Program-made: the position numbers and the translations under genes | Notes under the pieces: generated by a model | Database searches by the model: none | Seen by the model: the letters and a program-made list of their open reading frames with translations, nothing else | What the model was told of the DNA's origin: nothing | Source: Canna indica | Taxonomy: Eukaryota > Streptophyta > Magnoliopsida > Zingiberales > Cannaceae | Direction: 5' to 3' | DNA: 64,000 nucleotides | NCBI GenBank assembly: GCA_034359265.1 | Contig: CP136890.1 | Span: 54,987,501 to 55,051,500 of the forward strand | Shown here: one piece after another, positions 1,974 to 56,337 of the stretch | How positions within the stretch are numbered: position 1 is the first letter of the stretch | Layout of the letters: the number at the start of each line of letters is the position of its first letter

Positions 1974-4195
1974 GCCCATCAGTTGTCGTACGGCTCAAGA
2001 AGAGCCGCATGGAAATCGAGAAGGGCGAGACAGAGAGAAGGGAGAGAGGCGATCAAGGGGGGCGGCGCCGGAGTTTGTGGTCATCGTCGGAGGCCGAGAC
2101 ATCTTTGATCTTCTTCACTTTTCCTTCCATTAAGGCTAAGGTGAGTGGTTGAACCTTAGATTAGGGTGAAGCCCTTGGCCGAACCCTTGGGTTTATGAAG
2201 TTGACGATTTTTCGTGATGATTCTTTGTCGATTCTTCTGGTTCTTGATCCGGTATTTCCCTCATGTTGTCAATGTGTGATCTTGTGATTTTTCCGCGATA
2301 TTTTCTCGATTCATAGTGCAGGCCGAATAGAGGAAAAAGATGAAAGATCATGCCAAAATTTTCCCTAAGTTCCTCAAGTCCTTAAATCCTAGTAGATCTA
2401 TTCTTAAGCATGATTATGATCTTAGGAGAAATTTGTAGAGACCTTGGTCGAGGGTTTGATTTTCCCCAAAATCCCTAGGGCCGACCATGTGAGGTTCTTC
2501 CCCAATTCAAAGGGGTCGGGTGAGAGGGGTAAACCAAGGCTTGGCTTTGGGAATGAAGAGGGGAAAATAAAATATATGACTTAGCTTGTTGAGATCATAG
2601 CATTGAAAACATGAATTTGATGTAGTGTTAATTATGATCATCATTTATTAACTGGTGTAGATTGTTTCTTGTCTTGAGATGTATTAGAAGGCTCTCTATA
2701 TATTTTTATGCTTGCTGGAATTTATTTCTATATGCTGTAATTAAATAATTAAATGCTATACATAATTATTTGATTGATGAAACTATTGCTCATAGGCTTC
2801 CATCAAAGTATTGTTGCTGAAATTAAATTTTCACATGCTTCAATTAAATATTTGAATGCAGGCATTTAATGTTTAATTGCTATGATTATATAGGAAATTA
2901 TGGTGGTATAATTGTTGAATCCTCCTATTTCTAGTATGCCGTAATTATTAATTATTTCGAATATTATGTCAATGATATGCCTAATATTGATGAGCATGTA
3001 TGGTATGTGACATGAAACTAGGTGGAGGAAAATTTGTTGTATTTGTTTAGTACCTTGGACATGAGTACGAGACGTGAAACTCCGCTAGTAAATGACATAT
3101 GTTATTAGGAGTTAAATTGGATAAACTTTGCACATAAATACATTAGGTATTCATGCCTAGGGAGGGTAACTCAGAACAGTTGACCTAACACGGCCCGGGG
3201 TAGGGTCGGGTACGTGCGGAAGATCGAGAGATGTTTAGTAACTAGTGTAATACGTTGTATGTGTATTGTGTTTGAGATGGTCGGGCTGAGGGGTGTTTAT
3301 AGCCGACACGGCTAATATCCGACTCAGTGGGTGATTAGGGTCTTGAGATTGCACCAGTGGGCCACGCTAGGTGTTAGACCTGAGTGGCGGAAGGTCTTGA
3401 GATTCTGTTAGTGGGCCACGCTGACGGTAGACCTGAGTTGGGTGGGACTAGCTATCCCTAACCCGGTGGAGTTTCTGAAACTAGTTGACCATCCTAGTTG
3501 ACGGACTCGGTAATTGAATCGCTAAATGCGGAATTTATGTAAGAATATATAACCTACTGTGGTTAGTGTACATACTTATATGATTGTGTGGGCCGGTGTG
3601 GCCGAGTATTGTAAAGAGATGAAGGTCGGGCACGACCGAACTAATTATGCAGGGTAAGGCCCATAGTGGCCGAGTGATACTTATTGTGTAGTGCCATAAT
3701 TGACGGGTTTGTTTACTCACAGGGAATGGCCAACTGGCCGGTTATTGTGATACGACCAGTATAAATTTTATGCACATGTTTTATTGCTATATATGATATT
3801 ATACTGGGGACTTAGGTGGAGGTTCGGAAGAACCACTCACTGAGTTCCTGATGGACTCATGGTTTTATTTGTCATTGTTTTGCAGAGCCTGACCAGTGAG
3901 GTATGACTTGATAACATGGCGCGGTTGGAGTGCAGGTGGTGACGCATATCTCATAGCAGGTAGTTTCATAGTCAGTCATGTAGGGAGAGTTTTAGCTCAT
4001 GCACTGAGTCATGTTCTTTGATCGTTGAGTTGTGAAATTTGTTTTCAACATTTAATAAAGTTTAGCATACCTCATTTATATTGTCTATGTCATTCTGATT
4101 GCATATTGTTATTTGGTTAATGAGTGCATGTGGTAGGCTTTGGAGTACAAACACCTACCGTGGCCGGTCACGCAACCGTAAGTTGGGGCGTGACA
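1695..4195 (+). repeat. 5' LTR of element F
   Basis: The LTR starts TATAATACCCAAGG, a mutated form of the TGTATTACCCGAGG start of element B's LTR at 32791. It ends GGGGCGTGACA directly before the PBS. Its second part (from about 2510) matches 8352-9912. The start, including 'ggtttcctaatat' and the 'gagtcgcgagatcgccgcgag' block, resembles the LTRs of B, so F and B are related subfamilies. Confidence 0.85.
1941..1971. repeat. (AT)n microsatellite in the LTR
   Basis: About 14 uninterrupted AT dinucleotides precede GGGCCC, at the place where related LTRs carry a promoter. The run can act as a TATA-like element, but a simple-sequence expansion explains it equally well. Confidence 0.85.
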
Positions 4196-4199
4196 AAGT

Positions 4200-4412: not shown

Positions 4413-5640
4413 ATGGAGGCTCACAATGTTGCGTTGAGCGGCAGCGGCAGTAATTCCATAGCACGCTAGCGCCGAGGCCGGGGACGAGACCGAGGTCGGG
4501 GCAAGGACCGTCAGAGAGGTCAGTCAGGGGGGGCAGGACAAGATCCCATAGTTGCACAGCTACAGACTTAGGTAGCACAGTTGACTGAGGCGCTCCGCAT
4601 GGAGCAAGAGTTGAGGCAGCATCAGCCGCAGCCGGTACCGGTGGCACCGATGGTACCGAAAGTGGCCTAACCAGTCCAACCAACAGAGAGGGATCCTAGA
4701 GCGGCTACCTATACTGTCTTTGTGAAACTAAGGCCGTCAAAGTTCACTGGGGCATATTAGCAAGAGGAGGTCACTAGCTTCCTTAGCAACAGCTACGAGT
4801 TGTGTGAGGAGCTCGGGTGTTCCTCGGAGGTGGTTGTTCGTATGGTCGGGCTACAGCTTAGACGGTCGGCCAAGGAGTGGCTGCATACCTGGAGAGATGA
4901 TAGGGTGCCAGGTGCGTCACCCCTTACCTGAGCAAATTTAAGGCTGCTATCGTGGAGTGGTACATACCGATGAGTGTCCGTGACCGATGGGCAAAGGAGT
5001 TTGAGCAGTTGCGCCAGACTGATGGTATGTCAGTGTTTGATTATGAGAGGCAATTTACTCGACTCTCGGAGTACCATCTTGCATTTGTAGCGACTGAGAC
5101 CCTAGGGTCAAGAGGTTGTCGAGGGGCTGAGGGTGCATATCAGCAGGCTGTTTTGCTCAGGTAGTGGATGAGGCACTTCGGAAGGAAGAACTGGTGCCAT
5201 TCGAGAAACATGACAGATCCCCAAAGAAGAAGTTCCAGCCTCAAGGATCTGGAGGTCGGCCTTGGCATTCTGAGGGGACTATTGCAGCGGCAAGTCACCA
5301 ACCGAGCAGAAGACACAGTAGTAGCAGGGGCCGTGGAGGCCCAGGGTCAGGGGCAGCTCAACAGGCAGGGTCAGGGGATGCTTCGCAGGGGATGCTTCAT
5401 AGAAGACCGAGATGTCGTAGTGTGGCCACTGTAACAGGAGGCATTGGGGGGATTGCTAAGTCCACACGGATGCCTGCTTCAGATGTGGGCAGGTTGGGTA
5501 CTTCAGGAAAGATTGTTTGGACAGATGTGGCCCGAAAGTTGAGTAGTCCAAAGGGAAATCGTCGATGTCAATTAGTTCTGTAGCTTAGAAGGGTCAGGCA
5601 GAGGGCAGAGGGCAGGGGGCAGCAGACCAGTCACTCTAAT
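4413..5640 (+). pseudogene. gag of Gypsy element F, degenerate
   Basis: From the ATG at 4413 the region aligns codon by codon, through several frames, with the better preserved gag of element B (35.7-36.6 kb). Both show an early segment rich in Gln and Glu, a retrotransposon Gag domain (frame 4952-5164, with 'VFDYERQFTRLSEYH'), and a basic, glycine-rich tail. A zinc knuckle near 5480-5517 keeps its three cysteines, but the histidine position reads Tyr, so metal binding would be lost. Several stops (for example before 4680 and at about 4929) and frameshifts break it. Role inferred from the family: capsid assembly and RNA binding. Confidence 0.75.
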
Positions 5641-7376
5641 AGGCCTTCCGCCAAGGTTTATGCTATGAACCATTATGACGCTGAGGTATTTAAGGCAGTA
5701 GTAACAGGTACACTTATTGTTGGTTCATCTGCAGCTTATGTTATCCGGGTGCTATGCACCCCTTTCTCTCTGCTAGTTTTGCTGCTAAGTTACTTGGGGC
5801 ACCTTCTTTGCTTGATGTGCCATACGTTGTGTCAACGGCTATGGGCGATGCAATATTAGCCTAGACAACCTTCCGAGGCTGTTAAGTGCTCATTTGTGGG
5901 CATGTGTTGAAGGCAGAATTGACACTCCTACCAATGCTTGAACTTGATGTTATACTCGGCATGGATTGGCTGGCAAAACACTTTGCGTCAGTGGATTACG
6001 GGGCTAAGATGGAAGGGGGGTGGAAGGGGGATCCTATGGGAGTCATTTCAGCCCTAAAGGCTCACAAACTACTTATGGGCAGCTGCCAGTCCTTCCTAGC
6101 CTTCATATCTGTGGTCGAGGAGGATAGAGACACGGCAGGGGATGTCGGGGGAACACAGGTGGTGGTTTATGAGTTCCGTGACATATTTCCCGAGGAGTTG
6201 TCAGGCTTACCGCCAAGAAGAGAGAGATTTTTGCATCGACATGCAGCCTAGGGTGAAGTCGATCTCCATTCCACCCTATCGGATGGCACCGGCTGGGTTG
6301 AGGGAATTCAAAACACAGTTACAAGAATTGCTAGACTTGAGTTTCATCCGCCTGAGCGTGTCTCCGTGGGATGCTCTAGTGCTCTTCGTGAAGAGGGTGG
6401 ACAGGTCCATGTGCATGTGCATTGACTACAGGCAGCTTAACAAGGTGACAATCAAGAATTGTTTATCCACTGCCAAGGATCGATGACATGTTCGACCAAC
6501 TGTAGGGGGCACAATGGTACTCAAAAATTGACTTGAGATCCGGATACCATCAGTTGAGAATCTGGGACTGTGATGTGCCTAAGACTACCTTCAGGACTCG
6601 CTATGGCCACTTTGAGTTCTTGGTGATGTCCGTTGGGCTGACTAATGCGCCTGCAGCCTTCATGGACTTGATGAATCGAGTGTTCAAGGAGTATCTGGAC
6701 AGATTTATGATCATCTTCATTGACGACATCCTGATTTACTCTAGGAGTAGGGAGGAGCACTCCGAGCATTTGAGGATGGTCCAGGAGACCCTCATAGAGC
6801 GTCGGTTGTATGTCAAGATCTCCAAGTGCGAGTTCTGGTCAAAGAGCGTAGGGTTCTTGGGCCATGTGGTGTCCAAGGAAGGGGTAAGAGTGGATCTCGC
6901 AAAGGTGGAGGCAGTGCAGAACTGGAGGCGGCCGACCAGTGTGATTGAGATCCGCAGTTCTTGGGGTTGGCCCGGTATTATAGAAAATTTATGGAAAATT
7001 TCTCTAGGATTGCGGCTCCATTGATTTGATTGACCCAGAAAAAGGTCAAGTTTGTTTGGGACGACAAGTGCGAGGAGAGCTTTCAGAAGCTCAAAGAATG
7101 CTTGACGTCAGCACCAGTGTTGGACGTACCTTCAAGCTCGGGAGGGTTTGTGATTTACTATGATGCCACTCGGGTTGGCCTCGACTGTGTTCTGATGCAG
7201 TATGGCAGGGAGATAGCCTATGCATCCCGCCAGTTGAAAGTTCATGAGAAGAATTACCCGACACACGACCTAGAACTGGCAGCAGTAGTTTTTGCTTTGA
7301 AGCTATGGCGCCACTACTTGTATGACAAGGCCTGTGAGATTTACACTAACCGCAAGAGCCTCTAGTACTTGCTTAC
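5641..7376 (+). pseudogene. Partial pol of element F (protease-RT-RNase H), degenerate
   Basis: Domains are recognisable in order. A retropepsin-like region spans 5665-6000; its Asp-Ser-Gly site is destroyed, although 'ELDVILGMDWLAKHFASVD' after it is clear. Reverse transcriptase spans about 6240-6960 with '[14 protein letters not shown]' and the catalytic FIDD (6716-6727). RNase H spans 7030-7376 with '[20 protein letters not shown]'. Each domain lies in a separate short frame because of frameshifts and stops (for example TAG in the Tyr-Leu-Leu-Thr stretch near 7363). The frame ends abruptly at 7376, where a family-E LTR begins. No integrase or chromodomain follows. Confidence 0.85.
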
Positions 7377-8351
7377 TGTAATATCCTGGATATTTAATTA
7401 TATCATTTTCCTTTATGGTTGTATTTGCCAGCCTAGCGGACTAGATCGAGGTCGAGCCGAGTCGACTCATGGTCCGGTGCGAGTTTGCGAACTCGAGTAA
7501 GTAAGAATACGAGTTATGTAATTTTGCCTATGAAGATTAATTTATTTAATCGTTTTATGTTGCATATGCATAAATGTTTAATTATGTGGCATGTGGATGT
7601 GGATGTGCATTGTGTCTATATTATTTATGGGTGGTTACGTGGAGAATAGAATTAATTTAGTTAATTTAAGTTGGCGGGTTCGGGTTCAGCTTGAGGCGGA
7701 TGTGGGTTGGATGAAAGGGTTAGAAGGGTTAGGGTTAAGGAGAGAGTATAAAACCCTCTCCCCTTGGCTTGTGGCTTCCTATTGGAGCCACACAAGACTT
7801 TTGAGAAGAGGAGCCAGCCCCCTAGCCGCCCACCCACCAGCCCCTCTCCTCTTCCACTTGGAGCCACCCCCGCCCAAGGCTCCATCCCTTCTCCTTCCTC
7901 TCCTTCTTCCTCCCCTTCGGAACCGAGCCGAGAGGAGCTAGCCGAAGCCAACCCCTCTATCTTCCTCTCTCCCTCTCTCCTCAAGCCGACGGCTTGAGGT
8001 GAGCCGCCGCCCCCTCTCTTCCCCTTCTTGAGTTGAGCCGTCGTCTTTTGAAGCCGGATTCGAGGGCCATCGTCCAGGATTGCTTCTAATCATCTTTCCA
8101 AATTATGAGAGTAGTTTTACCCTCCTCCCTCTTTCGGGATTTCTTCGAGTTTCTTGAAGCCGTTCTTGGAGGCTTGATGTTCTTGATTTGTTTTCGATGA
8201 TTTTTTGAATTCTCAACGTTCTTTTTGTGTTCCGTATTTGAGGAGACCCTAAACCCTTCCCTATGGGGTTCGGTAGCCCTAGGACGATCCTAGGGGTGCT
8301 CGGCCAAGGGTGGAGCAAGGGTGCCTTCAAGGTGTTCGATGAAATGCCTAA
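7377..8351 (+). repeat. Proximal part of a family-E LTR
   Basis: It begins TGTAATATCCTGG and matches the start of solo LTRs E2 (52035 on) and E1 (reverse, ending 41834). This includes the TATA box (TATAAAA at about 7747-7753), the CT-rich leader with 'gagccgccgcc', and 'ggtgttcgatgaaatgcctaa'. At about 8351 it stops matching E and continues as the F LTR. The proline-rich and serine-rich reading frames here are low-complexity shadows. Confidence 0.8.
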
Positions 8352-9912
8352 GGGGTCGGCCGAGAAGGGTAAACCAAGGCTCGGCTTTGGGAATGAAGAG
8401 GGGAAAATAAAATATATGACTTAGCTTGTTGAGATCATAGCGTTGAGAACATGAATTTGATGTAGTGTTAATTATGATCATCGTTTATTAACGGGTGTAG
8501 ATTGTTTCTTGTCTTGAGAAGTATTAGATGGCTCTCTACATATTTTTATGCTTGTTGGAATTTATTTCTATATGTTGTAATTAAATAATTAAATGCTATA
8601 AATAATTATTTAATTGTTGAAACTATTGCTCGTAGGCTTCCATCAAAGTATTGTTGTTGAATTAATTTTTCACATGCTGCAATTAAATATTTGAATGCAG
8701 GAATTTAATGTTTAATTGCTATGATTATGTAGGAAAATTATGGTGGTATAATTGTTGAATTCTCTTATTTCTAGTATAATGTGATTTATTAATTATTGTG
8801 AATATTATGTCAATGATATGTCTAATATTGATGAGCATGTATGGTATATGACATGAAACTAGGTGGAGGAAAATTTGTTGTATTTATTTAGTACCTCAGA
8901 CATGAGTACGAGACGTGAAACTCCGCTAGTAAATGACATATGTTATTAGGAGTTAAATGGGATAAATTTTGCACATAGATACATTAGGTATTCGTGCCTA
9001 GGGAGGGTAACTCAGAACTGTTGACCTAACAGGGCCGCGCGTAGGGCTGGGTATGGGCGGAAGCCCGAGAGATGTTTAGTAACTAGTGTAATACATTGTG
9101 TATGTGTATTGTGTTTGAAATGGTTGGGCTGAGGGGTGTTTATCGCTGACACGGCTAATATCCGACTCAGCGGGTGACTAGGGTCTTGAGATTGCACCAG
9201 CGGGCCACGCTAGGTGTTAGACCCGAATGGCGGAGGGTCTTGAGATTCCGTCAGTGGGCCACGCTGACGATCGACCCGAGTTGGGTGGGACTAGCTATCC
9301 CTAACCCGGTGGGGTTCCTGAAACTAGTTGACCATCCTAGTTGACGAACCGAGTGATTGAGTCGCTAAATAGTGGCCCATAGTGGCCGAGTGATACTTAT
9401 TGTGTAGAGCCATAATTGGCGGGTTTATTTACTCGCAGAGAATGGCCAATTGGCCGATTATTGTGATACGACCAGTATAAATTTTATGCACATATTTTAT
9501 TGATATATATGATATTATACTGGGACTTAGGTGGAGGTTCGGAAGAACCACTCACTAAGTTCCTCGTGGACTCATGGTTTTATTTGTCTTTGTTTTGCAG
9601 AGCCTGACCAATGAGGTATGGCTTGATGGCGTGGCTCGGCTGGAGTGCAGGTGGTGACGCAGATCTCGTAGCAGGCAGTTTCATAGTAGTAGTCGTGTAG
9701 GGAGAGTTTTAGTTCATGCATTGAGTCGTGTTCTTTGATCGTTGAGTTGTAAAAGTTGTTTTCAACATTTAATAAAGTTTAGCATACCTCATTTATATTG
9801 TCTATGTTAGTCTGATTGCATATTGTTATTTTGTTAATGAGTGCATGTGGTAGGTTTCGGGGTACAAACACCTACCCTAGTCGGTTACGCGACCCTGAGT
9901 TTGAGCGTGAAA
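8352..9912 (+). repeat. Distal part of the 3' LTR of element F
   Basis: This is colinear with 2511-4195 of the 5' LTR, from 'ggggtcgg..gagaagggtaaaccaagg' to the end, which has decayed from TGACA to TGAAA (9908-9912). It lacks about 130 bp present at 3530-3660 of the 5' LTR. The right copy of the target duplication (AGAAT) follows at 9913-9917. Confidence 0.85.
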
Positions 9913-10025
9913 AGAATATAGGGTGTGAATAGTGTATAAGTTAAAAATTCAAGTTGAATAGAACCTATTTGGTATATTTCATGTCTTCTGATTGTAACTT
10001 AGATCTCGTTTGGTTGACATGGGAA

Positions 10026-25108: not shown

Positions 25109-25212
25109 TGGACGATTCCGGCGCGCGTCCGAAGTGGACGATTCCGGCGCGAGTCCGAATTGGACCATTCCGGCGCGCGTCCGAAGTGGACGATTCCGGC
25201 GCGCGTCCGAAG
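25109..25212. repeat. Four tandem 26-bp GC-rich repeats
   Basis: Four consecutive units each contain GATTCCGGCGCG and CGTCCGAA, with only one to three changes between units. They lie about 0.5 kb upstream of the CACTA transposase start, between the inverted repeat and the right end of the element. Confidence 0.88.
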
Positions 25213-25664
25213 TGGATAATTCCGAAATTAATCTAAACTCTAAAAATTATTCTAACAAATTAAATAATTAATCTAAATAATTAATTAACAATTAATTAAC
25301 AATTAAAAAACAATAATAAAATAATATTAAACTACAAATTCCGGCGCCGGAGTCAGGTGGACTCCGGCGCCGGCGTACACTGGCCGGACACACTGTCCGG
25401 CCAATGTACAAGGTCCGGCGGCGGCCATCGGCCGACCGCCGCCGGCCGAAACCCTATTTTTAGGGTTTCGGTCGGATTTTCTACCGACCGCAACGGGAAG
25501 AGACGGCAACCGGAGGGCATATACCTGACAGTGTCGGCAGCAGCGGGAGGCGTCGTCGGCGTTGTCGGCGTCGGCAGCGGCGGCGAGAGGAAGGAGAGGA
25601 GGCGGCGGCGGCAGCAGCGGGAGGAAGAAGGGGGCCGGGCGCGATCTGCGACCTATATAAACTT

Positions 25665-25955
25665 ATCAGCAACGGCTCACTCGCCCGTTAGAAAGCCGTT
25701 GCTGATAATTTATCATCAGCAACGGCTCACTTGTCCGTTAGCAAGCCGTTGCTAATAAGTTATCATCAGCAACGGCTCACTTGTCCGTTAGAAAGCCGTT
25801 GCTGATAATTAAAATCATCAGCAACGGCTCGCATGTCCGTTAGAAAGCCGTTGCAGATACAACATATCTGCAACGGCTCGAGCGGCCGTAAGAATGCCGT
25901 TGAAAATAACAACGGCTTGAGCGGCCGTTGCTGATAGCCGTTGCTGAAGACCAAT
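25665..25955. repeat. Right subterminal repeats of the CACTA element
   Basis: Five or more near-tandem units of about 55 bp each contain ATCAGCAACGGCTC and GCCGTTGCTGAT as a facing pair, so each unit is itself a small inverted repeat. They match the left-end motifs. The promoter of the transposase probably lies among or just left of them. Confidence 0.85.
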
Positions 25956-38850: not shown

Positions 38851-38981
38851 CTAGGCAACAAGGCAGGCAGAGTCAGGGGGTGCCGCTCAGAAGACAGACA
38901 TGCCGTAGTGTAGTCGCTGTAACAGGAAACACTAGGGGGCTTATTATGGCCGTACTGATGCATGCTTCGGATGTGGGCAGG
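38851..38981 (+). pseudogene. gag of element B, middle part with first half of the zinc knuckle
   Basis: This resumes the basic, Gly/Gln-rich gag tail seen in element F at 5340-5490. It ends inside the CCHC zinc knuckle, after the first two cysteines (Cys-Phe-Gly-Cys-Gly-Gln). The solo LTR at 38982 interrupts there. GCAGG at 38977-38981 is its target duplication. Confidence 0.75.
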
Positions 38982-41834
38982 TGTCACGCCCCAACAAAGG
39001 GTCACGTGACCGGCCAGGGTATACGTGCCTATACCTCGCAGCCTAAACCATGCACATGCCTACTCAACAAATAAATAATAGCGGAAAGAAATAACACGTT
39101 TCTTTTCAAATGAAAAGCAAACCAAAATAGAGTTTATTACAAGTAGTTTAACTGAAACATAAAGTGCAGTAACAACAAATTAAGTTCAACATTTTAAAAG
39201 TCCAGATAAAATAAAGTATGAAATAAATGACATAAATGTTCTCAGGTGCTACAACTCCAAATCAAACCAATAAAAGTGCATGACCACTACCAAAATACTC
39301 GACTACGACCCTAACTAGGACTGCTATAAGATCATGCAGCTCCTCTACCCTCCAATGTTGCCAACTGCTCCAATCCACCTCACCGGTCAGGCTCTGCAAA
39401 ATAGAAATCAAACGACAACGGGTGAGTTCAAAGAACCCAGTGAGCGGTTCTACCAACCCCCACAAAAAATAACATAGAGACAACAAGAATACATATATCT
39501 CTACAGGAGGTAAAGTCACAAAGGTGTGACTAGCTAACAGGCCAACTGGCCACACATGCCCCAAGGTATCCAACCCTTTAAGAGTGGAGTACATCAGGCC
39601 GAAGCCTACCATGCCTGAAGGCAACAACACATACTAGGATAATCGGGAAGACCCTCCGAACTTATCCTAGTATAAGGAAACCCGAGAGCAATCGAGAAGG
39701 CCCTCCGTACTTGCTCCGCGAGACGTGACATCACAAGAGTAATCGGGTAGGCCCTCCGAATTTACTCTTTTAAGACATCACAGGAATAATTGGAAAATGC
39801 CCTCCGAACTCATTCCTCTTTAAATAAAAATCACCTCGGGAATAATCGGGTAGGCCCTCCGAATTTACTCTTTTAAGACATCAAAGGAATAATTGGAAAA
39901 TGCCCTCCGAACTCATTCCTCTTTAAATAAAAATCACCTCGGGGATAATCGGGTAGGCCCTCCGAACTTATCCCACGAGGCCAAACTGGAACAATCGGGA
40001 AAGGCCATTCGAACTTGTTCTACAGGTTGGGAATTTGTCATCCAACTTCTCGGGCCTAGCCCGCAATCTGGCTCCTAATCGAGCTGCTCCACCATTCATA
40101 AAGATATGGTGCAACATAACCGAAGTCAAGATTCTCCTGCGGTGTCCTAGGGGTGTAATTATAAAGAAGCGTCTCAACACTCCAAACCTGACCCCTATCG
40201 CTTAGACCCGTAATGTCTTGAACTCGTGTGGTTTTATTTCATGCAAACTTTATGTGTTGGTTCATAACAGATTATGTTGACCCTTAACCCAATTTTTAAT
40301 TATGCAATTAAAATTTAGATCACCAAGATTAGGGTTTTGTTTTAGCTTACTGTTGTGCCCAGTACTGATGTATCTAACCCAATTCAAGTCTCCAAAGTGT
40401 GTCCTATATTTCCAAACTATGTTTTCTGGTCAAAACAATAGGTTACACGACTATATTCAAAGTATAATACACACACCGCAGAAAGCAATCTAAAAATAAC
40501 ACAGATTCATCATCTCAGCATAAAATTCCAGCAACATTCAATTTTCAGCCTATCATGAAATTAAATCCAAAAATTAATAGAAATTAAATCCTTAATTATC
40601 ATTAGGACAGAATACTAATCTCAAGATTAATTTCACAGATTTCTTGCTTATTAATCAAGATTAACAAGAATCTACAACACCTTAATCAAGAAACAAACAT
40701 CAAGATTAAGAACCCCTTTCCAAGAATCTCCATGGCATAAATATCAGGATCCTGATCCTATAACATGATTTCTACCCAAAAATCAAAGATTTAAATCTAA
40801 TGCATGCAATCCATAAATAAAGAAACTATTTAGGTAAAGGAATGAAAATTTGCATATCAAGGTAACGAGAACGCTCATTCGGGCATTTCATCGAACACCT
40901 TGAGGGCAACCCCAATTTCCCCCTTGGCCGAGCACCCCTAGGTTTACCCTAGGGCTGCCGAGCCTCATAGGGGAGAGTTTAGGGCCTCCTCAAGCACAAA
41001 CCACAAGAAAACACGGTAAGAACTCGAGAAATCATCGAAACAAATCAAGAACGATAAGCTGCCAAGAATGGCTTCAAGAATTCGAAGAAATACCGAAAGA
41101 GAGGGTAAAACCACTCACCTAATTTGGAAAGATGATTGGAGAAGAAAGTCCAATTGACGGTCTCCGATTTCGGCTCCGAAATCCGACGGCTCAACCCCAA
41201 AAGAAAGGAAGGCAGGCGGCGGCTCCTCCCAAGCCGCCGACTCCAAGGGGAAAAAGGGAAGCAAGAGGGGTGGTTGGCTTGCTAGCGGCTCCCTCGGCTC
41301 GGCTCCACAGGGAAGGAAGAAGAAGAGAGGAGAAGGGAAGGGCTTTAGGCGACTGCTCCAAGGTGGAAGAGAAGGGGGGGCCCGGCTAGCAGCTTGGCTG
41401 GCGGCTGGCTCATCTTCTCAAAAAATTTGGGTGGCTCCAAAATAGGAGCCACAAGCCAAGGGGAGGGGTTTTTATACTCCCTCCTCAACCCTAACCCCTC
41501 TAAACCCTTTATCCAACCCGCATCCACCTTAAGCCGAACCTGAACCCGCTAACTTAAATTAACTTAATTAAATCTTATTCTAATCCCATAATAAATCATA
41601 AGTAATTAAATAAGCATATCCACGTAACATAATTAAACAATTATGCATACACAACATCAAATTGTAAAAATTAAACTATTCAAGCCTAATTCACATATTT
41701 TATATCCTACTTACCCGAGCTCGCAAGCTCGCACCGGACCGTGAGTCGACTCGGCTCGACCTCGAATTAGTCTGCTAGGCTGGCAAACACAAACCATGAG
41801 AGGAAAAATAAAATTAAATATCTAGGATATTACA
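38982..41834 (-). repeat. Solo LTR E1 (family E), minus orientation
   Basis: 2853 bp, from TGTCACGCCCCAAC to ...ATATTACA (sense: TGTAATATCC ... GGGGCGTGACA), with a perfect target duplication GCAGG (38977-38981 and 41835-41839). No internal region is present, which indicates unequal recombination between the two LTRs of a full element. It is related along its length to E2 (52035-54763) and to 7377-8351. A minus-strand TATA box lies at about 41470. The proline- and glycine-rich frames at 41132-41389 and nearby are low-complexity shadows. Confidence 0.93.
39631..40020 (-). repeat. Covarying hairpin array in solo LTR E1 (8 units)
   Basis: Eight units of about 30-43 bp share the core TCGGGTAGGCCCTCCGAA (with variants). 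In most units the core is flanked by complementary arms whose sequence differs between units: 12-bp ATACTAGGATAA with its complement (39631-39673); GAGCAA/TTGCTC (39686-39716); AAGAGTAA/TTACTCTT (39735-39769); AGGAAT/ATTCCT (39782-39817 and again after 39880); GGGATAA/TTATCCC (39942-39974); GAACAA/TTGTTC (39989-40020). One unit, near 39838-39872, has mismatched arms at a duplication boundary. An inner TCGG/CCGA stem closes a loop of about 9 bases. Confidence 0.9.
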
Positions 41835-44800
41835 GCAGGTTGGACACTTTAAGAAAGATTGTCCGGACAGAGGTGGCCAGAGATCTGAGCCATCGAAGGG
41901 AAAAGCGTCGATGTCCATGGGGTCAGTGGCACAAAAAGGTCAGATGCAGAGCAGGGGTCTGCATGCTAGCCATTCTGAGAGATCGTCTGCTAGAGTCTAC
42001 GCCATGAACCGTGATGGGGCAGAGGCATCTAAGGCATTGGTAAGAGGTACTATTTTAGTCAATTCATCTACTGCTTATGTTCTGTTTGATTCGGGTGTCA
42101 CGCACTCATTTGTATCTGTCAAATTTGCTGCTGGATTACCTATGGCACCTTCCTTGCTTGACGTGCCGTACGTTGTATCGACGCCTACGGGCGATGCATT
42201 AATAACTAAATCAATTTTTCGAGACTGCGAGGTGCTCATCTGCGGTCATGCATTGTGGGCAGAATTGACACTCCCGCCAATGCTTGAACTCGATGTCATA
42301 CTCGGCATGGATTGGCTGGCGGAGCACTTTGCGTCGGTGGATTGCAGGGCTAAGACTGTCACATTCAGCAAGCCCGGGTTGCTACAGTTCACCTTCCAAG
42401 AAGAAGGAAGGGGTGAGCCGATGGGAGTCATCTCAGCCCTTAAGGCTTGTAAACTACTTTTGGGCGGCTACCAGTCTTTCATGGCCTTCATATCTGTTGC
42501 CGAGGAAAAGGGGGGCACAGCAGGGGATGTCAGAGGTACTCAAGTAGTCTGTGAGTTCTCCGATGTATTTCCATTGGAGTTACCGGGATTGCCGCCTAGG
42601 AGAGAGATTGAATTCTGCATCGAGTTATAACCTGGAGTGAAACCGATCTCCATCCCACCCTATTAGATGGCGCCGGCCAAACACAGGGAATTAAAAGTGC
42701 AGTTGCAGGAGTTACTAGACTTGGGTTTCATTCGCCCAAGTGTGTCTCTGTGGGGTGCTCCGATTCTATTTGTGAAGAAAAAAGATGGGACCCTACGTAT
42801 GTGCATCGACTATAGGCAGCTTTACAAGGTGACAATCAAGAATCGTTACCCGCTGCCGAGAATCGACGACTTATTCGACCAATTGCAGGGGGCAAAATGG
42901 TTTTCAAAAATTGATTTGAGATCTAGGTACCATCAGCTAAGAATCCGAGACTGTGATGTGCCCAAGACTGCCTTTAGGACTCGTTATGGCCACTATGAGT
43001 TCCTGGTAATGTCGTTCGGGTTGACTAATGCATCTGCGGCTCTTATGGATCTAATGAACATAGTATTCAAGGAATACCTGGACCGATTCATGATCGTCTT
43101 TATTGATGACATGCTAGTGTACTCCAAGAACAAGGAGAAGCACTTTGAGCATTTGAGGATGGTCCTGGAAACCCTCAAAGGATATCAGTTGTATGCCAAA
43201 TTCATCAAATGTGAGTTTTGGTTAGAAAGTGTAGGGTTCTTAGGTCATATAGTGTCCAAGGAAGGAATAAGCATGGATCCCACCAAGGTAGAGGCGGTAA
43301 GAGACTGGAAGTAACCAACCAATGTGATTGAAGTCCGTAGTTTCTTGGGGTTAGCTAGGTATTACAGAAAGTTTGTAGAAAACTTCTCCAGGATTGCAAC
43401 CCCTCTAACCCGATTAACCCAGAAGTAGATCAAATTTGAGTGGGACAAGAAGTGTGAGGAGAGCTTCCTGAAGCTCAAGGAATGCTTGACGTCATCACCA
43501 ATATTGGTCGTACCTTCAGGCTCGGGAGGGTTTGTGATCTACTGTGACCTCTCGTGTCGGCCTCGGGTGTGTACTGATGCAGTATGGTAGAGTAATTGCT
43601 TACGCGTCCTGCCAGTTAAAGGTACATGAGAAGAACTATCCAACACATGATATGGAATTGGCGGCGGTAGTATTTGCTCTAAAGTTATGGCGCCACTACT
43701 TGTACAGCGAGGCTTGTGAAATTTATACCGACCATAAAAACCTCCAGTACTTGCTCACTCAAAAGGAGCTGAATCTAAGGTAGAGGAGGTGGCTAGAACT
43801 TCTGAAGGATTATAACTGTACCATCATGTACCATCCTGGGAAGGCCAATGTGGAGGCAGACGCCCTGAGCATGAAGTCCATGGGCAGCATGGCCTATTTA
43901 GCTGTCAGGAGGAGGCCGCTAGCTCGGGAGTTGGCACCGTGCCTGGATAGGGGAGCAGTACTAGCAGTATCAGCTTTAGGTGCCCTTGTGGTGCATCTGC
44001 GGGTACAATCCACCTTGGTGGATATGGTGCGTACCGCGCAGGGGGAGGACTCCTTCTGTTTTCTGACGAAGGACCTGGTCCAGAGGGGCGATGTGGATAA
44101 TGGCTTCAGGATTGACGCAGAGGGTGTCTTGAGGTACAAAGACTGGATCATGGTGCCTGATATAGCAGAGATGTGCAGGCAGGTTCTAGAGCTGGGCCAC
44201 CGTTCCACTTATACGATGCATCCGGGGGCCACCAAAATGTACCGAGACTTAAGGCAACACTACTTGTTGAAGGGCTTGAAAAACGAGGTAGTAGAGTTCG
44301 TATCCAAGTGTTTAGTCTGCCAGCAAGTGAAGGCCGAACACTTGAAACCCGCAGGGCTGCTTCAGAACCTCGAGGTGCCTGAGTGGAAGTGGGAGAAGAT
44401 CACCATGGACCTAGTGATCGGGCTGCCTAAGACAAGAGGTGGCCTTGATTCCATTTGGGTGGTAGTGGATCGGTTGACTAAGGCCGCGCACTTCATCCCG
44501 GTCAAAACTACCTTTTATGCTGAGTAGTACTCCAGACTATTTTTAGATAGGATTGTGGTATACTATGGTACCCCAGTGATGATCATATCAGATCGAGGTA
44601 CCCAGTTCAAAGCCCAATTTTGGCAGTCCTTCCAGGAAGCCTTGGGTACTCAGGTGCGCTTCAGCACAGCTTTCCATCCGCAGATGGACGGACAGTCAGA
44701 GAGAACCATCCATACCTTGGAAGATATGCTGAGGGCATGCGTTCTGGACCTGGCTGGCGGTTGGGAGAAACACCTCCCATTGATTGAGTTCGCCTACAAC

Positions 44801-45499: not shown

Positions 45500-47860
45500 T
45501 GTAAGACCCGAGGTTTCCTAATATATAATTTATTTTGGTGCAGCGCAACGGATCGGGAGCTAGTCGGGTCGAGTCGCAAAATCGCCGCAAGTAGAAGGTA
45601 TAATTTAAGTTTAATGAAATTTTTGCTAAATATTCCTTTCCTTCATGATCATGAAATGATTTAGTAGAGTCGGATTTGAAATCGTGTTTGCGGATCGAGT
45701 CGGGGTTCAAATCGGGCTTGGATTGACATGAGTAGGGGCTAATTAAGTGAGAGGGGCAAATTGGTCAAAGGTAAATGAGGGAATTAAACCCTCACCCCCC
45801 TTAGCAGCCGTGTGGCTCAAGCATGGGAGCTGCACGTAGCCCGAGAAGAGAGAGGAGAGAGGGAGAGCTTTGAGGTCAGCGCTGGATTCATGCCGCCGTC
45901 GAAAAAATCGAGATCATCGTCGCTCGTCCAATTTTTCCCTTAGATCAAGGTGAGTGGATCGAACCCAGATATGTAGGGTAGGCTGATATTCGACCCAAGG
46001 TTTTAAGGGTTTTTCCCATTTCTCGAGTAATTCTATCGATTCACCGATGTTTCTTCCATGATTCGATTCAAATGTTATGTATGTTGTTCGTATGAAGTTT
46101 TCTTGTCGTTTTCATGATGATTGGGGCCGGCACATAAGGGAAAAAGGTGGAGAACCTCGCGTTGGAAGCCCTCGTATTGAGTTTCTCTCGCGATTAATGA
46201 CTTGATTCCTCTCAACCATGGCCGAGAACCTTTTTCCCCTACCCTGGTTGCTCCCGGCCGAGCATGAGCAGCCTTGGGTAGGCTCGGCCGAGTAGGTGGG
46301 GGAAGGGGAAAAGGGCTCGAGTTGGTTCACGTTTACATGTAGGGTATTAAATCCTTGATTTCATATTAATCACTCAATCAATATATGAATTGTTGGTAGT
46401 GATAGATTGAGAATATCATATTATAAAGAAATGTTCTTGATAGTGTATACATGGTTAGAATTTCGTATGGCATATAATTTTGAGAAAGTTCCTCAATTAA
46501 TTTACTAGTTTTCAATTTTTACCATGATAGTTCAATTATTACTTTGCTGAAATTTATTGATTAAATGCATAATTAAATTTCTTTATTGTTGCAAACATGT
46601 GGTTATTCGTGGTAGTAAGTGTAGAACGATTTCCTTAAAATTTAGATGTTGTGATATAACTGTATTTGAACATATCTATGCTTATGCATGTGATTTACAC
46701 TTAAGAAACATGGTGAATGACACTAGATGATTATAAGGAAATTATAGGGTGTTAATTGTCGGAGAAATCTGGACATAGACAAGTTGGGTTTCACACCTAG
46801 AAATAAATCAGCGGGCACTAGTGTGCGGATGGGAGAGCTCGGAATGGGGGAACCGGATGCGGGTGAATTCCCGAGATTAAATTAGGAAACTTTAGAGCAC
46901 TTTGCTTATGTATTATGATTGTGGTGGTCGGCTGAGAAGCATGGACGGTCGGAACGACTAATGCTTGACTCGGCGGGTGATTAGGGTCTTGAGTTTGCAC
47001 CAGCGGGCCCGCTAGGTGTTAGACCCGAGTGGCAGAGGGTCTTGAGATTCCGTCAGTGGGCCACGCTAACGGTAGACCTGAGTTGGGTGGGACTAGCTAT
47101 CTCTAACCTGGTGGGTTCTTGAGACTAGTTGACCATCCTAGTCGATGGCCCGATGATTGCTATGACTTTCCTTATGTGATATGTGGGCCATGCAGCCGGA
47201 TTATTATTTTGTGGTAAAGGCCGGGCAAAGCCAAGCCACCAGTTCTTGAGCAGGTTCTAGTGGCCGAGTATTGCCCAGTCTAGTTGGGCCGTTATGGCCG
47301 GCAGTATGGTTTATACAGGATGGCCTCTGTGCCGATTGTCATATCATGACTAGAATAGATCCCTAAATTTATAAATTGCTGACTTATTTGCATGTTGTTA
47401 TTGGGGATTTATGTGGTGGTTCAGAAGAACCGCTCACTGAGTCCCATGTGGACTCACGGTTTATTTCTCTTATTTTTGCAGAGCCCGACCATTGAGGTGA
47501 GGCTTGGAGTCATGGTGCAGCTAGAGGACAAGCAGTGACGTAGATCTTGTAGCAGCGTCCAGTAGTCGTAGTCGTGATGTCTAGGGTTGCTTTTTGTATA
47601 CACTGAGTAATGTTTAATTTGAAAACACGTATTTGACTTCTAACTCGAGATGTTCTTAATGGTTGGTTTATTTTTACAACTCTTTTAAATTTGTTCGAGA
47701 CTTGTTTTAAATTAAATAAAATTTTGCATCGTTGTCCTTCTACTTGTATCTTTTTTGGTTGGCATGTATTCTCAATTTTTTGCTATTCAGTGTATGTGGT
47801 AGGCTTTAGGGTAGGACATAAACCCTAGCCAGTCATGCGACCCTGAGTTGGGGCGTGACA
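45500..47860 (+). repeat. 3' LTR of element B
   Basis: 2361 bp, TGTAAGACCCGAGG to GGGGCGTGACA, colinear with 32791-35510 apart from the insert and deletions noted there. It keeps the 'gggtcttgag...agaccc' hairpin units (about 46984-47080) that the 5' LTR has lost. Confidence 0.92.
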
Positions 47861-51382: not shown

Positions 51383-52034
51383 TCTGCAAAACAATGCTAA
51401 GAAAAGAATGGTAGTTCAAAAGAACTTAGTGAGTGGCCGTCTCGGCCATCATCAAGCCAATTTACATAAATAAATATAGTAAATAATTTCAATGCTCATT
51501 CAACTGATATGAAACATAACATGATTTTTCGTAAGTCATCTCGTGCGCTACACATACTACTCGGTGTAATTCGGCCCAAATGAACCAACCTCAATTTAAC
51601 CGCCAACAACTCGCAGGTTGCTCACTAGGCTGGCCACCCTAGCGAACTCCCGGCCTCGATCTCACTAAGCTAGGAAGGTCGTCTAGTATCAGTGCTGAAA
51701 ATTTGGCCGAAAAAGGCCCTCCGACCAATGCCACTCAGCTCAATCATCGACGTGGCTAACCGACTCATATCTCGACCAGAATCAACTCGTGCGCACTGCG
51801 CACCCTCAACCCAAAATCAATTTGTACGCACTTCGTACCACTCGGCCATCACATGCACATCCACAAACACTCTCATTAAGTGGATTGATTTATATATTTA
51901 TAAAGAGGTCGATTACTTGGGTAGATACGACGTAGCATACATTTCTCGGTGCATGCTCGGTAGCACTCGCACGGCTACCACTCGGCCCAATTAATTATTC
52001 ACCACCGAATTACCCACCGTTAACACCTCAATAC
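51383..52034 (-). repeat. Middle segment of LTR I
   Basis: It continues 15909 after removal of element G. On the minus strand it reads the conserved Gypsy LTR block '...cactaagttcttttgaacta' near its left end. It is interrupted at 52035 by solo LTR E2. The 100-codon frame at 51692-51994 is inside LTR DNA and is not regarded as a gene. Confidence 0.7.
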
Positions 52035-52367
52035 TATAATATCCTAGAAATTTTAATTTTATTTTCCTTTTATGGTTGTGTTTGCTAGCCTAGCAAACTA
52101 GTTCGAGGTTGAGCCAAGTCGACTCATGGTCCGGTGCGAACTTACGAGCTCGAGTAAGTAGGATATGAATTATGTGAATTTTGCTTGCATAAATAGATTT
52201 ATTTAATTATATGTTATGTTGCATGATTGTTTAATTATGAGCATGTATTGGTTGATTATGTGGAGAGTAGGATTAATTAAGTTGAATTAAGTTAGCAGAT
52301 TCAGGTTCGGCTTTAGGTGGATGCGGGTTGGATAAAGGGTTTAGAGGGGTTAAGGTTGAGGAGGGAG

Positions 52368-52374
52368 TATAAAA
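52368..52374 (+). promoter_or_regulatory. TATA box of solo LTR E2
   Basis: TATAAAA in 'ggagggagtataaaaccctc', conserved at about 7747 and, inverted, at about 41470. A CT-rich leader follows it, as expected for an LTR promoter. Confidence 0.7.
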
Positions 52375-53840
52375 CCCTCTCCCCTTAGCTTGTGGCTCCC
52401 TATTTGGAGCCAACAAAATTTTGAGAATAGGAGCCAGCCGCTAGCCGGCCCCCCTTCCCTCCCCCCTTTGAGCCGCCACCACCAAGAGCGGAGCCGCCGC
52501 CCCAAAGCCCTCTTCCCTTCCCTCTCCTCTCCTCTTCCTCCCCTTTGGAGCTGAGCCGAGAGGAGCCAGCCGAAGCCAACCCCTCTCTCTTCCTCTCTCC
52601 CTCTCTCCTCAAACCGGTGGCTTGAGGTGAGCCGCCGCCTGTCCTTCCTCTTCTTTGGGTTGAGCTGCCGAGTTTCTTGAAGCCGATTCGAGGGTCATTG
52701 TCCGGGGTTCTCTTCTAATCATCTTTCCAAATCTAGGTGAGTGATTTTACCCTCATTCTTTCGGGTTTCTTCAAGTTCTTCAAGCCAATCTTGAAGGCTA
52801 TTGAAATCTTGATTTATTTTCCGACGATTACTCGAATTCTCGATGTTCTTTTTGTGTTCCATGTTTGAGGAGACCCTAACCCTTCCCTATGGGGTTCGGC
52901 AGCCCTAAGACGGCCCTAGGGGTGCTCGGCCAAGTGTGGAACAAGGGTGCCCTCAAGGTGTTCGATGGAATGCCTAAGTGAGGGATCTTGATTATCTTGT
53001 GGTTTATATCTCCAATTGATGTTTGAAATGAGTTCTTATATGTTCCAGCATGCTTAGTATTAAATCTGTGATTTTAGATAAAAATCATGTTTAAAAAAAA
53101 ATTGAATCTTGAGGTTGATGCCATGAGGGTCCTTGAAAGAGAGGTACTTGATCTTAATGTTTGTTCTTGATATTGTAAATTCTTGTTAATCTTGATTAAT
53201 AAGCTTGAAATCTGTGAAATAAATCTTGAGATTAGTATTTTGTCCTAACGATAATTAAGGATTTGATTTTTGTTAATTTTCGAATTTAATTTCATGATAT
53301 ACTGAAAATTGAATTTTGCTGGAATTTTATGCTGAAATGATGAATCTGTACTATTTTTAGATTATTTTCTGTGGTGTGTGTATTACTCTGAATATAGTCG
53401 TGTAACCTATCGTTTCGATCAGAAAATATAGTTTGGAAACATAGGATATAGTTTGGAGACTTGATTCGTGTTAGATACATCAGTTTCGGACAAAACAATA
53501 AGCTAAAATAAAATCCTAAAATAAAACCCTAATTGTGGTGAACTAAAATTTAATTGTATAATTAAAATTGGAAAATGGGTCAGCATAATCTGTTATGAAC
53601 CAACATGAGAAATTTATACATGAAATAAAACCACACGGGTTTATGACATTACGGGTCTAGGAGTTGGGGTCGGGTTTGGAGTGTTGAGACACTTTCTAAT
53701 AGGATCACCCCCAAGACACCATAGGAGAGTCATGACTTGGGTCATGGTGCGCCATATCCTTGTGAATGGCGGAGAGGCTCGTAGAGGAGCCGGATTGCGG
53801 GCTAAGCCCGGGAGGTTGGATATGGCTAATTCCCAACCTG

Positions 53841-54166
53841 CAGAACAAGTTCAGAGGGCCTTTCCCGATTGTTCTGGTTTGGCCTTGTGGGATAAGTTTG
53901 GAGGGCCTACTCGATTATCCCCGAGGTGGTTTGTTAAGAAATAAGTTCGGAGGGCCTACCCGATTATTCTTGAGATATCTTAGGGGACTAAGTTCGGAGG
54001 GCCTACCCGATTACTCTTATGATATCTTAAAGGGGCAAGTTCAGATGGATGAATCTCGATTGTCCCTACGTGTCTCGTCGAGCAAGTTCGGAGGGCCTTT
54101 CCCGATTGCTCCCGAGTTTTTGTATACTAGGATAAGTTCGGAGGGTCTTCCCGATTATCCTAGTAT
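53841..54166 (+). repeat. Covarying hairpin array in solo LTR E2 (7 units)
   Basis: Seven units share the core GTTCGGAGGGCCTACCCGA (with variants) and have arms that pair within a unit but differ between units: CAGAACAA/TTGTTCTG (53841-53876); GGGATAA/TTATCCC (53889-53921); AAGAAATAA/TTATTCTT with one bulged base (53936-53971); a weak unit near 53986-54020; GGGGCAA/TTGTCCC with one G-T pair (54032-54066); GAGCAA/TTGCTC (54080-54111); 12-bp ATACTAGGATAA with its complement (54124-54166). The order of arm types matches E1 read in sense. Confidence 0.9.
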
Positions 54167-54768
54167 GTGTTGTTGCCTTAGGGCATGGTAGGCTTAGGCC
54201 TGTTGATCTTCACCATATGCGTGTTGGCTGCCTTCGCGCAGGTGGTGGCCTGATAGCTAGTCACACTTTCGTGACCTTATTCCTGTAGAGTTGGATGTTA
54301 TGCTATTGTTTATCTCCGTGCTATTTTTATTGTGGGGGTTGGTAGAACCGCTCACTGAGTTATTTGAACACACCTGTTGTCGTTGTTTTGTTTTGCAGAG
54401 CCTGACCGGTGAGGTGGGCTGGAGCACTTGGCGCAGCTGGAGGGCAGAGGAGCCACGTGATCTTATAGCAGTCCTAGTTAGGGGTCGTAGTCGAGTGTAG
54501 GTTGTCATCCACTTTTGTTTTGGTATTTGGAGTTGTAGTCCCTTCGGGACATTCATATTTTATTCAGTTTTTATTTATTAATAGAACTGTTGCTATTCGA
54601 TTTAAATATTTCCGCACTTGAGATATTTATTTAAAACCTTGTTGTTTTAAAAAGCTGTTGTTTATTCTGCTATCTTATGATGTTGGCATGTGCATGAGTT
54701 AGGCTATGGGGTATAGGCACATATACCTGGCCGGTCACGTGACCCTATTTTTGGGGCGTGACAAATAG

Positions 54769-56337
54769 ATTACCTTACCATTTTCTATTCACAGAATTTA
54801 ACATCCGTGGTGGGTTGTCGCGTAGCGAAAATGCTAACGTTCTGTCGAATAGTTTTCGCACGACGTACCTTTTCGTCACCACCATTCCTCGTTCGAAATC
54901 CCTTCCGAACTCACAGAAATTCCCGAGCAAACTAAAAGGATGCCACATCTGTCCAAGGGTTCCCTTATTTAGTGAGAGGTCGTAAAAATCTCATATTTCT
55001 ATTTTATCCAAGCCTCGCGGAAATTTCAGCCTGTAAGCTGAAATTCAGCCCTCTTTAGTGAGACTTTCCCTCATTTTCACCAGATAGCTTATACTCTCAT
55101 GCAAGGGTGGAAATAGCTAACTAACCTGATATTCTTATAGGTTCGACTAATAACATCCACAACAATCCACTAGGTGACAACCCGGACTCGCAACTTGACC
55201 AATTCAACAAGCAAGTCATAAATTCCAACCTACTTGACCAGTCCAGTTAATGTTCATACACAACTGAACATCCCTCGATATGGTACTCAAAATTCATTGA
55301 ACCTAGTGTACATAAAGATCGATATACTACATCGACAATTTACAACATGTAATACCCGTTCCGACTTGAAGAAAATGTGAATTCAACATATCTTTAAGTA
55401 ATTCCAGCATACATAGCATAATTTCAGCATAACACCATAATATTCAGCTTTAAACAAATTAATCACAGCATGATGGCAAGTGTTTGATCAAGTAGAACTC
55501 AAACTAATTACCCTTAAGGGTACCCTACACCCTTAGGGATACTCGGCCACCCTAGGCTACAACACAACTTGGATTTCTAGCATGCTTTCCATCTTAGAAA
55601 TTCGGAATTAATCATGAGATAATTATAAAGTAAACTCAAAACATCAATTTCATGTTCTCTTCACTAGGGTCGGCCCTCCCTAGGGTTTGGGGGCATGCCC
55701 TATGGCTATCGCCCACTCTAAACCCCAGGAAGGTGTCCTACACACAATTTGAGGCAACAAACACGAACAATAAGGAGTATACTCTCAAGAAAATGAATCA
55801 ATTTTGCTCCCGAATCCATTTACAAGGATCGGCAGCCCCTTCTTCCTAAGTTTAGGGATTTTGGGTAAGGACCACTCACCTAGGACTTGTTTAGGGATGA
55901 GGAAGACGATGGAGAAGCCCTGCATCGTATCTAATCTGACGAAGCCCTGATCCTCTGGCCGATTCCTTCTATTTCACCTCCTCTCTCACTCACCTTCCTT
56001 GGGTGGCGTGCGGTTCCTCCTTGGATCCGTACACCCCAAGTGGCAGGTCTTTTATATATATTTTTAATTTTTAATTGCCAAATTATGAAATTGCTCTTTC
56101 TCACTTAACCGGACCCAACTTGCTCAAAATGAGTCCGATTCGAGCTCCGATCGCCCCCTCAGACTCGGCTCGAATCCAACTCAGACTTAACACAATAAAT
56201 ATCTCTATATTTTGGTAATTTAAATTGAGCAAATGTCTCACCTCAAATCACACCCATCCGCGATCAACTCCGTGCATGTCGCACTCATCCTGCTGAAAAC
56301 AACATACACAGATTTAATAAATTTCGCAAGTATTACA
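54769..56337 (-). repeat. Distal segment of LTR I with promoter
   Basis: This is the U3-side part of the minus-strand Gypsy LTR: TATATATAAAAGACC on the minus strand at about 56049-56063 (TATA box), then a CT/GA-rich leader, ending ...TATTACA. It includes 'ggcatgccctatggctatcgccc', which recurs at about 57440-57465. Confidence 0.65.

Follow-up and report, generated by a model that had tools for sequence, protein, structure and literature searches.

Tandem repetition and folded RNA have both been described in retroelements. Short tandem units are present in the U3 of retroviral long terminal repeats (LTRs) and in that of the tobacco element Tnt1 (PMC3601003), and Del/Tekay LTRs carry CpG islands of variable length (Cruz et al. 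2014, PMC4029996), going by the available parts of those papers. Structured cis-acting RNA is represented by retroviral packaging stem-loops and the Gag-binding RNA of Ty1 (PMC8096270, PMC8396678) and, in plant retrotransposons, structured RNA is represented by the retrozymes (PMC4918200), the sources again being available in part. The feature considered here, an array of hairpin units in a solo LTR of Canna indica termed E2, has something of each: it consists of short tandem LTR units like the U3 repeats, it is a part of the LTR that varies in length between copies as the Del/Tekay islands do, and it would be structured retroelement RNA, cis-acting as in the packaging signals and carried by a plant retrotransposon as in the retrozymes. 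The window, i.e., the whole stretch of DNA analysed, is 64,000 nucleotides of contig CP136890.1 (positions 54,987,501 to 55,051,500 of the forward strand, assembly GCA_034359265.1), and the coordinates below are those of the window. E2 is a Ty3/gypsy, Del/Tekay-like solo LTR of about 2.7 kb (52032–54763, + strand, with 3′ end GGGGCGTGACA and an approximate 5′ boundary), and the array of seven hairpin units within it at 53841–54166 (+ strand), with arms that differ yet pair, is real, beyond chance. Stems that differ and still pair around a shared core suggest selection for folded RNA in a large plant retrotransposon family, whatever its putative function there. To our knowledge, the cis-acting RNA of plant LTR retrotransposons, for packaging, dimerisation or translation control, is largely unmapped.

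Hairpin units and compensating changes in their arms

The units lie head to tail with a spacing of 47–50 bp and share the plan arm - AAGTTCGG-AGGGCCT(A/TT)-CCCGATT - arm. Read as RNA, the core gives an AA/TT pair, a two-base GT bulge, a TCGG/CCGA stem and a GGGC-containing loop. When each arm position is scored outward from the core as Watson-Crick, G-T or unpaired, unit 1 (53841–53876) has arms CAGAAC/GTTCTG that are Watson-Crick throughout, TGGAAC/GTTCCA also being found in related copies, and unit 2 (53888–53922) has GGGAT/ATCCC, or at six positions TGGGAT/ATCCCC, the outermost unpaired and the other five Watson-Crick. The arms of unit 3 (53937–53971), AGAAAT/ATTCTT, have a mismatch at position 4 and G-T at position 5 with Watson-Crick pairs elsewhere, the commonest arms of this unit across the sample being AGGAAT/ATTCCT; those of unit 4 (53984–54018), GGGACT/ACTCTT, have a mismatch at position 2, G-T at positions 5 and 6 and Watson-Crick pairs at the rest, and in other copies are AAGAGT/ACTCTT or AGGAGT/ACTCCT. 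Unit 5 (54031–54067) has a different core of 25 nt, AAGTTCAGATGGATGAATCTCGATT in E2, which resembles a second core type considered below; its arms AGGGGC/GTCCCT are Watson-Crick except for G-T at position 2, a pair retained in 42 of 47 aligned copies. Unit 6 (54078–54113) has GAGC/GCTC, extending to TCGAGC/GCTCCC with the two outermost of six positions unpaired, and the ATACTAGGAT/ATCCTAGTAT arms of unit 7 (54124–54166) pair at 10 of 10 positions, or 12 of 12 counting AA/TT. All seven units are on the + strand. An earlier sequence-only reading, which proposed that the arms are complementary within each unit, had read the pairs correctly, including a perfect 12-bp arm pair and one arm pair with a G-T match, with the correction that units 3 and 4 of E2 each have one mismatch within the arms. 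Its further proposal of a constant loop and inner stem does not hold, as there are two core types, unit 5 has the 25-nt one, and TCGG/CCGA is altered in units 1, 2 and 5.

How specific is each arm for its own partner? From 88 loci came 89 arrays, 80 of them distinct, with 482 units, a sample biased by its selection: resemblance to E2 brought in 8 + 20 loci, resemblance to E1, a second solo LTR of the window, another 30, and an exact core match on a single contig (C1) the remaining 30. Within units, Watson-Crick pairing at positions 1–6 was 0.90, 0.87, 0.93, 0.89, 0.79 and 0.57, against 0.47, 0.47, 0.45, 0.89, 0.43 and 0.23 when the two arms came from different units of one array; the equality at position 4 reflects its being nearly always G-C. 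When the 3′ arms of E2 were permuted, only the real arrangement of the 5040 attained the observed pairing over five positions, with or without G-T, and over six positions with G-T not counted two of 5040 did. For E1 it was 48 of 40320, a weaker result because that array holds duplicated units. The second-core units (141 of 153 rows, those with the 25-nt core and full flanks) gave 0.85, 0.91, 0.87, 0.89 and 0.82 within and 0.46, 0.75, 0.72, 0.87 and 0.67 between units at positions 1–5, a less sharp difference than for the first core.

Compensating changes are found between copies also. The set for this comparison was 79 arrays, the divergent L075_2040 being left out, with 44 outer pairs, of which 89% were Watson-Crick and 5.5% G-T, compared with 22–44% Watson-Crick in slid controls. 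Double changes, scored as double cells over the 44 outer pairs, numbered 79, while a tree null with independent columns, run on the outer pairs and not the inner, had a mean of 23.2 and a maximum of 50 in 200 simulations; six slid controls had 6–25. Most of the double changes are in three pairs: position 5 of unit 1 (A-T 39, G-C 25, G-T 9, A-C 1; n=77), position 6 of unit 1 (C-G 24, T-A 23, T-G 15, C-A 8; n=77) and position 5 of unit 4 (A-T 36, G-C 22, G-T 11, A-C 0; n=71). Among the seven of the 44 pairs for which values were printed, the tree null attained the double count in none of 200 simulations for position 5 of units 1 and 4, and in 3 of 200 for position 6 of unit 1.

Terminal-branch changes would mostly be decay after insertion, and the ratio of internal to terminal change is 0.00 for AA/TT, 0.08 for the GT bulge, 0.14 for the inner stem, 0.16 for the loop, 0.27 for the arms and 0.38 for the spacers, from which it follows that the core was kept, that the arms changed under a pairing rule and that the spacers were freest; the fetching of copies by core similarity may exaggerate the constraint on the core. 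The excess of double changes over the tree null and over each of the six slid controls, and this gradation from core through arms to spacers, both support the earlier suggestion of coordinated change reflecting selection for a hairpin. The lowest ratio of 35 bins is 0.09 at 54160–54199, a bin that holds part of two small hairpins downstream of the array.

The molecule selected, the strand and the rival explanations

Is it RNA that was selected and, if so, from which strand? Were it sense RNA, G-U would be tolerated and A-C not, and outside the array transitions creating G-T are 1.2–1.4 times as frequent as those creating A-C. Exact genome-wide counts at position 5 of unit 4 are A-T 46, G-C 92, G-T 16 and A-C 5 (Fisher 1e-20, uncorrected for kinship), and at position 5 of unit 1 are A-T 83, G-T 32 and A-C 1, with the G-C class not counted; new events counted on the tree lean the same way. 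In the 141 second-core units G-T outnumbers A-C by 51 to 21 over positions 1–5, a ratio of 2.4 compared with about 1.4 when arms are mixed across units. Folded singly, 297 of the 482 units have the greater stability as sense RNA and 10 are equal. Action of selection on sense RNA is supported by these sequence comparisons, not proven.

A good deal has to be set on the other side, both as to strand and as to selection for a fold at all. The tree-counted preference for G-T over A-C is not significant alone (18:7.5 on internal branches, p~0.08; 78:52 on terminal branches, p~0.10), the 16:5 at position 5 of unit 4 is borderline (p~0.05), and with shared descent of copies the 32:1 at position 5 of unit 1 does not amount to 33 independent events. 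A-C is frequent at position 6 of unit 1 (the 8 of 77 given above) and at arm position 4 over all units, where it is found 22 times vs 10 for G-T (489 cells). Locally, the intended pairs form with a probability of 0.60 for antisense vs 0.53 for sense, sense being the higher in 12 of 79 arrays, and the E2 copy folds with a z-score of −3.59 antisense vs −2.33 sense; folding energies do not settle the choice of strand. A G-test resembling that of R-scape, over 285453 column pairs within 200 columns, gave four at E<0.05, none of them an array stem, and subfamily-diagnostic columns dominate this unrestricted test. With 61 arrays, RNAalifold recovered none of the 44 outer and 4 of the 42 inner pairs in sense, and in antisense 6 outer and 12 inner pairs; unit by unit it gave the expected hairpin for unit 5 (sense) and part of unit 3 (antisense) and none for units 1, 4 and 6, the column windows of units 2 and 7 having left one sequence each. 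The decay of old copies, alignment gaps and the two-subfamily structure are possible causes of the G-test and RNAalifold negatives, which stand as negative results. Covariation above background, on which the sequence-only reading had staked its proposal, is thereby borne out by the stem-restricted tree-null test but not by the unrestricted scan, which did not pick out the stems. Nor does the array as a whole show uniformly stronger conservation than the LTR on its flanks: its 40-bp bins have ratios of 0.15–0.49 vs 0.30–0.57 upstream.

Compensation alone does not identify the nucleic acid, and with antisense folding locally at least as well as sense, what was selected might have been a hairpin or cruciform in DNA, or a hairpin in single-stranded cDNA, of use in chromatin, promoter function or integration and with no preference for sense RNA. 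However, a cruciform would suffer alike from G-T and A-C, and the excess of G-T over A-C is above the neutral 1.2–1.4 at position 5 of unit 1 and, less clearly, of unit 4, while the G-T pair of unit 5 is maintained in the great majority of its copies, so that we regard DNA-level selection as unlikely. Could there have been no selection at all? Template switching in a hairpin, during reverse transcription or replication, can be imagined to repair imperfect arms without any function being involved, and would account for perfect arms of 10–12 bp and for simultaneous changes on both sides, of which parsimony places 7 internal and 5 terminal double Watson-Crick steps on single branches. Yet no inverted core was found in the 80 arrays (scanned with up to 5 substitutions), single-sided G-T steps outnumber double steps on internal branches by 18 to 7, over positions 1–5 the arm pairs most often seen in each of the seven units differ, by eye, only by transitions, and the core changes far less than the spacers on internal branches. 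This palindromic copying, an alternative that the sequence-only reading had itself entertained, has become quite improbable with no inverted core found, the commonest arms differing by eye only through transitions at positions 1–5 and G-T intermediates common.

There is also the precedent, from the available part of PMC3601003, of tandem U3 repeats that can act in retroviral transcription and have a counterpart in Tnt1. The core being the most constrained portion of the unit, it could on that model be a double-stranded transcription-factor site in an enhancer repeat, with arm pairing inherited from an ancestral palindrome. Pairing of that origin would decay, yet the arms have changed and still pair in different units and subfamilies, and the stems of the two core types are similar; we rate this explanation as very improbable.

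An array of sense-transcript RNA hairpins, held under selection and multiplied by tandem duplication, is then the account that we consider probable, with appreciable room for doubt. The units would have been multiplied through tandem duplication in steps of 47–50 bp, unit number differing between LTRs, and while the element was active selection would have preserved the folding of each unit. The arms would have drifted mostly by single transitions via G-U pairs, followed by compensation, and would be mere scaffold for a likely recognition surface made up of the AA/TT pair, the two-base GT bulge, TCGG/CCGA and the GGGC-containing loop. The full-length RNA contains every part of an LTR, with U5 at the 5′ end, U3 at the 3′ end and R at both, and so the array would be present in that RNA wherever transcription starts. 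The form of the array, with one conserved bulged core in several copies on free stems, leads us to infer a platform for multivalent docking, whose most likely partner would be the Gag of the element, in packaging or the assembly of particles, or a host RNA-binding protein. The fuller proposal is tentative, and we hold it with much less assurance than selection for the hairpins: it is of a previously undescribed LTR feature, in which sense-RNA hairpins with a shared bulged core and drifting, compensated stems form an array of variable unit number, and which could dock Gag or a host protein on Del/Tekay-like genomic RNA, with the core types GGAGGGCCT and GGANGGGCRAATC perhaps reflecting a change of partner between subfamilies.

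Host element, genomic spread and neighbouring repeats

E2 (52034–54763) aligns in self-comparison with E1 (38982–41835) at 75% identity, and solo LTR E1 holds, on the − strand at 39636–40025, a sister array of eight units identified by sequence and self-comparison, four of its units lying in a duplicated 103-bp block that holds two units. The flanks of E1 match an insert-free stretch elsewhere in the window (5386–5494 vs 38874–38982 and 5489–7377 vs 41835–43759), which fits insertion with a short target duplication; this empty site, 5386–7377 vs 38874–43759, gives the insertion boundaries of E1. E2 is a solo LTR without a primer binding site (PBS), but among related copies (79 examined, 55 with a located LTR 3′ end) 12 of the 55 have TGGTATCAGAGC, with at most 2 substitutions, 3 nt downstream of the LTR end. 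We take this motif to be a PBS for initiator Met tRNA, and, as it follows the LTR end, + is the sense strand of the E2 array. Adjoining one related copy (L019), RVP_2, RVT_1, RT_RNaseH, Integrase_H2C2 and SH3_Tf2-1 follow one another in that order at L109, the matches coming from five of six separately searched pieces drawn from 11 frames, which are broken; this is the protease, reverse transcriptase, RNase H, integrase order of Ty3/gypsy elements. In addition to the SH3_Tf2-1 match there is, by eye, a chromodomain-like stretch, and the lineage appears to be a Del/Tekay-like chromovirus. The LTR end GGGGCGTGACA fits the type A U5 attachment (att) sequence, with GGG at −8 to −10, though alone this is not specific; type A is described for Del elements in the available part of PMC4029996. 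By eye, no clear TATA box was seen in 54262–54400 (40 of 79 copies looked at).

The sequence-only reading placed the array in E2, where it indeed lies, but the feature is not limited to E2, its cores being present thousands of times genome-wide. In the 752.9 Mb (9 contigs) searched, exact matches to the first core AAGTTCGGAGGGCCTNCCCGATT number 1053 + 1164 = 2217 and to the second core AAGTTCGGANGGGCRAATCCCGATT 998 + 1057 = 2055, with no match to either reversed control, and the core pattern has no match in the viral_contigs set. Twenty loci picked for the second core have 4–12 detected units each, a few rows being upstream look-alikes and stretches of 500–700 bp perhaps cutting arrays. Dimerisation by kissing loops through the GGGCC loop suits core type 1 and a further LTR family, A, and was dropped as a general function because the second core, GGGCAA/GGGCGA, is by eye not self-complementary. 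Unit-4 cores are found on contig C6 at 20710768, 20711973 and 20713178, exactly 1205 bp apart, perhaps from a tandem repeat containing an LTR piece with the array. Three family E arrays (L028–L030) are on the same strand of contig C3 at 46869362, 46959533 and 47049347, some 90 kb apart, and, as only L028 was counted as distinct, probably reflect segmental duplication.

Directly upstream of the E2 array are three simple hairpins (53776–53839, + strand; GGCTC..GAGCC, CGGGC-TAA-GCCCG and AGGTTGG..CCAACCT), recognised from sequence and a single-copy fold, and downstream of it small hairpins seen by eye (54175–54275, + strand; GCC-TTA-GGGC, AGGC-TTA-GGCCT and GTCAC..GTGAC). Copies of LTR family A lie near 2510–4196, 8350–9913 and 45500–47433. 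One has a two-unit hairpin repeat with a GGGCC loop at 3337–3440 (+ strand), whose arms, CACC-AG/CT-A-GGTG and CTGTTAG/CTGACGG, differ between the units and pair by eye, the first with one unpaired A; another copy has the two-unit repeat, by sequence, at 46983–47083 (+ strand). In 20 further copies, where only the second unit matched the search pattern, 19 have four or five of its first five arm positions Watson-Crick or G-T. Families E and A share a downstream block of 140 bp at about 75% (54332–54471 vs 3816–3959, 9531–9650 and 47408–47555), within which 54337–54401 (+ strand) has GGTT..AACC, GAGTT..AAC and TTTTGCAG/AGCC. The last, which is like a 3′ splice site, is at 54390–54401 and near 3885 and 47478, and directly upstream of it is a hairpin, GAGTTC..GAACTC or GAGTCC..GGACTC, whose stem differs between the families and by eye still pairs. 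Together the two families suggest a wider use of structured LTR RNA, family A having been examined lightly. Elsewhere in the window, 25665–25909 has about five 50-bp units whose arms ATCAGCAACGGCT/AGCCGTTGCTGAT are nearly constant across units, unlike those of E2, and at 25109–25224 a GC-rich unit of 26 bp (TGGACGATTCCGGCGCGCGTCCGAAG), itself dyad-symmetric within, is repeated 4.5 times.

Comparison with known systems

If the account favoured here is true, paralogous units give built-in covariation, and with the core present thousands of times in a single genome the array would be a directly testable candidate for a cis-signal, for which the two core types and the copy-number variants are natural controls. 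It would also follow that repeats of LTR sequence, often interpreted as enhancers, can be RNA structure. Among the matches listed for the open-access literature, judged by titles and the starts of abstracts and with most subscription papers outside that scope, such a hairpin array is not described. The available main text of the Del/Tekay study makes no mention of hairpin, stem, palindrom, tandem, inverted repeat or secondary structure, unlike what characterises E2, and its cluster with all eudicot elements is predominantly without CpG islands (PMC4029996). Rfam has no match at E<=1 on either strand of 52000–54900, which speaks against a known RNA family, ribozyme or hammerhead retrozyme; the retrozymes of PMC4918200, as far as the available text goes, are set apart from E2 by this and by the protease, reverse transcriptase, RNase H and integrase domains of its related copy. 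The U3 repeats are treated in the accessible part of PMC3601003 as elements of transcription regulation, and in E2 the unit arms instead differ and covary. Compared with retroviral packaging stem-loops and Ty1 RNA, so far as the available text of PMC8096270 and PMC8396678 goes, E2 differs in that its hairpins are several, closely alike and placed inside the LTR, their binding of Gag being putative. Cis-acting RNA structure and tandem repetition within LTRs are both of known kinds, and we rate the E2 array as a new form of these.
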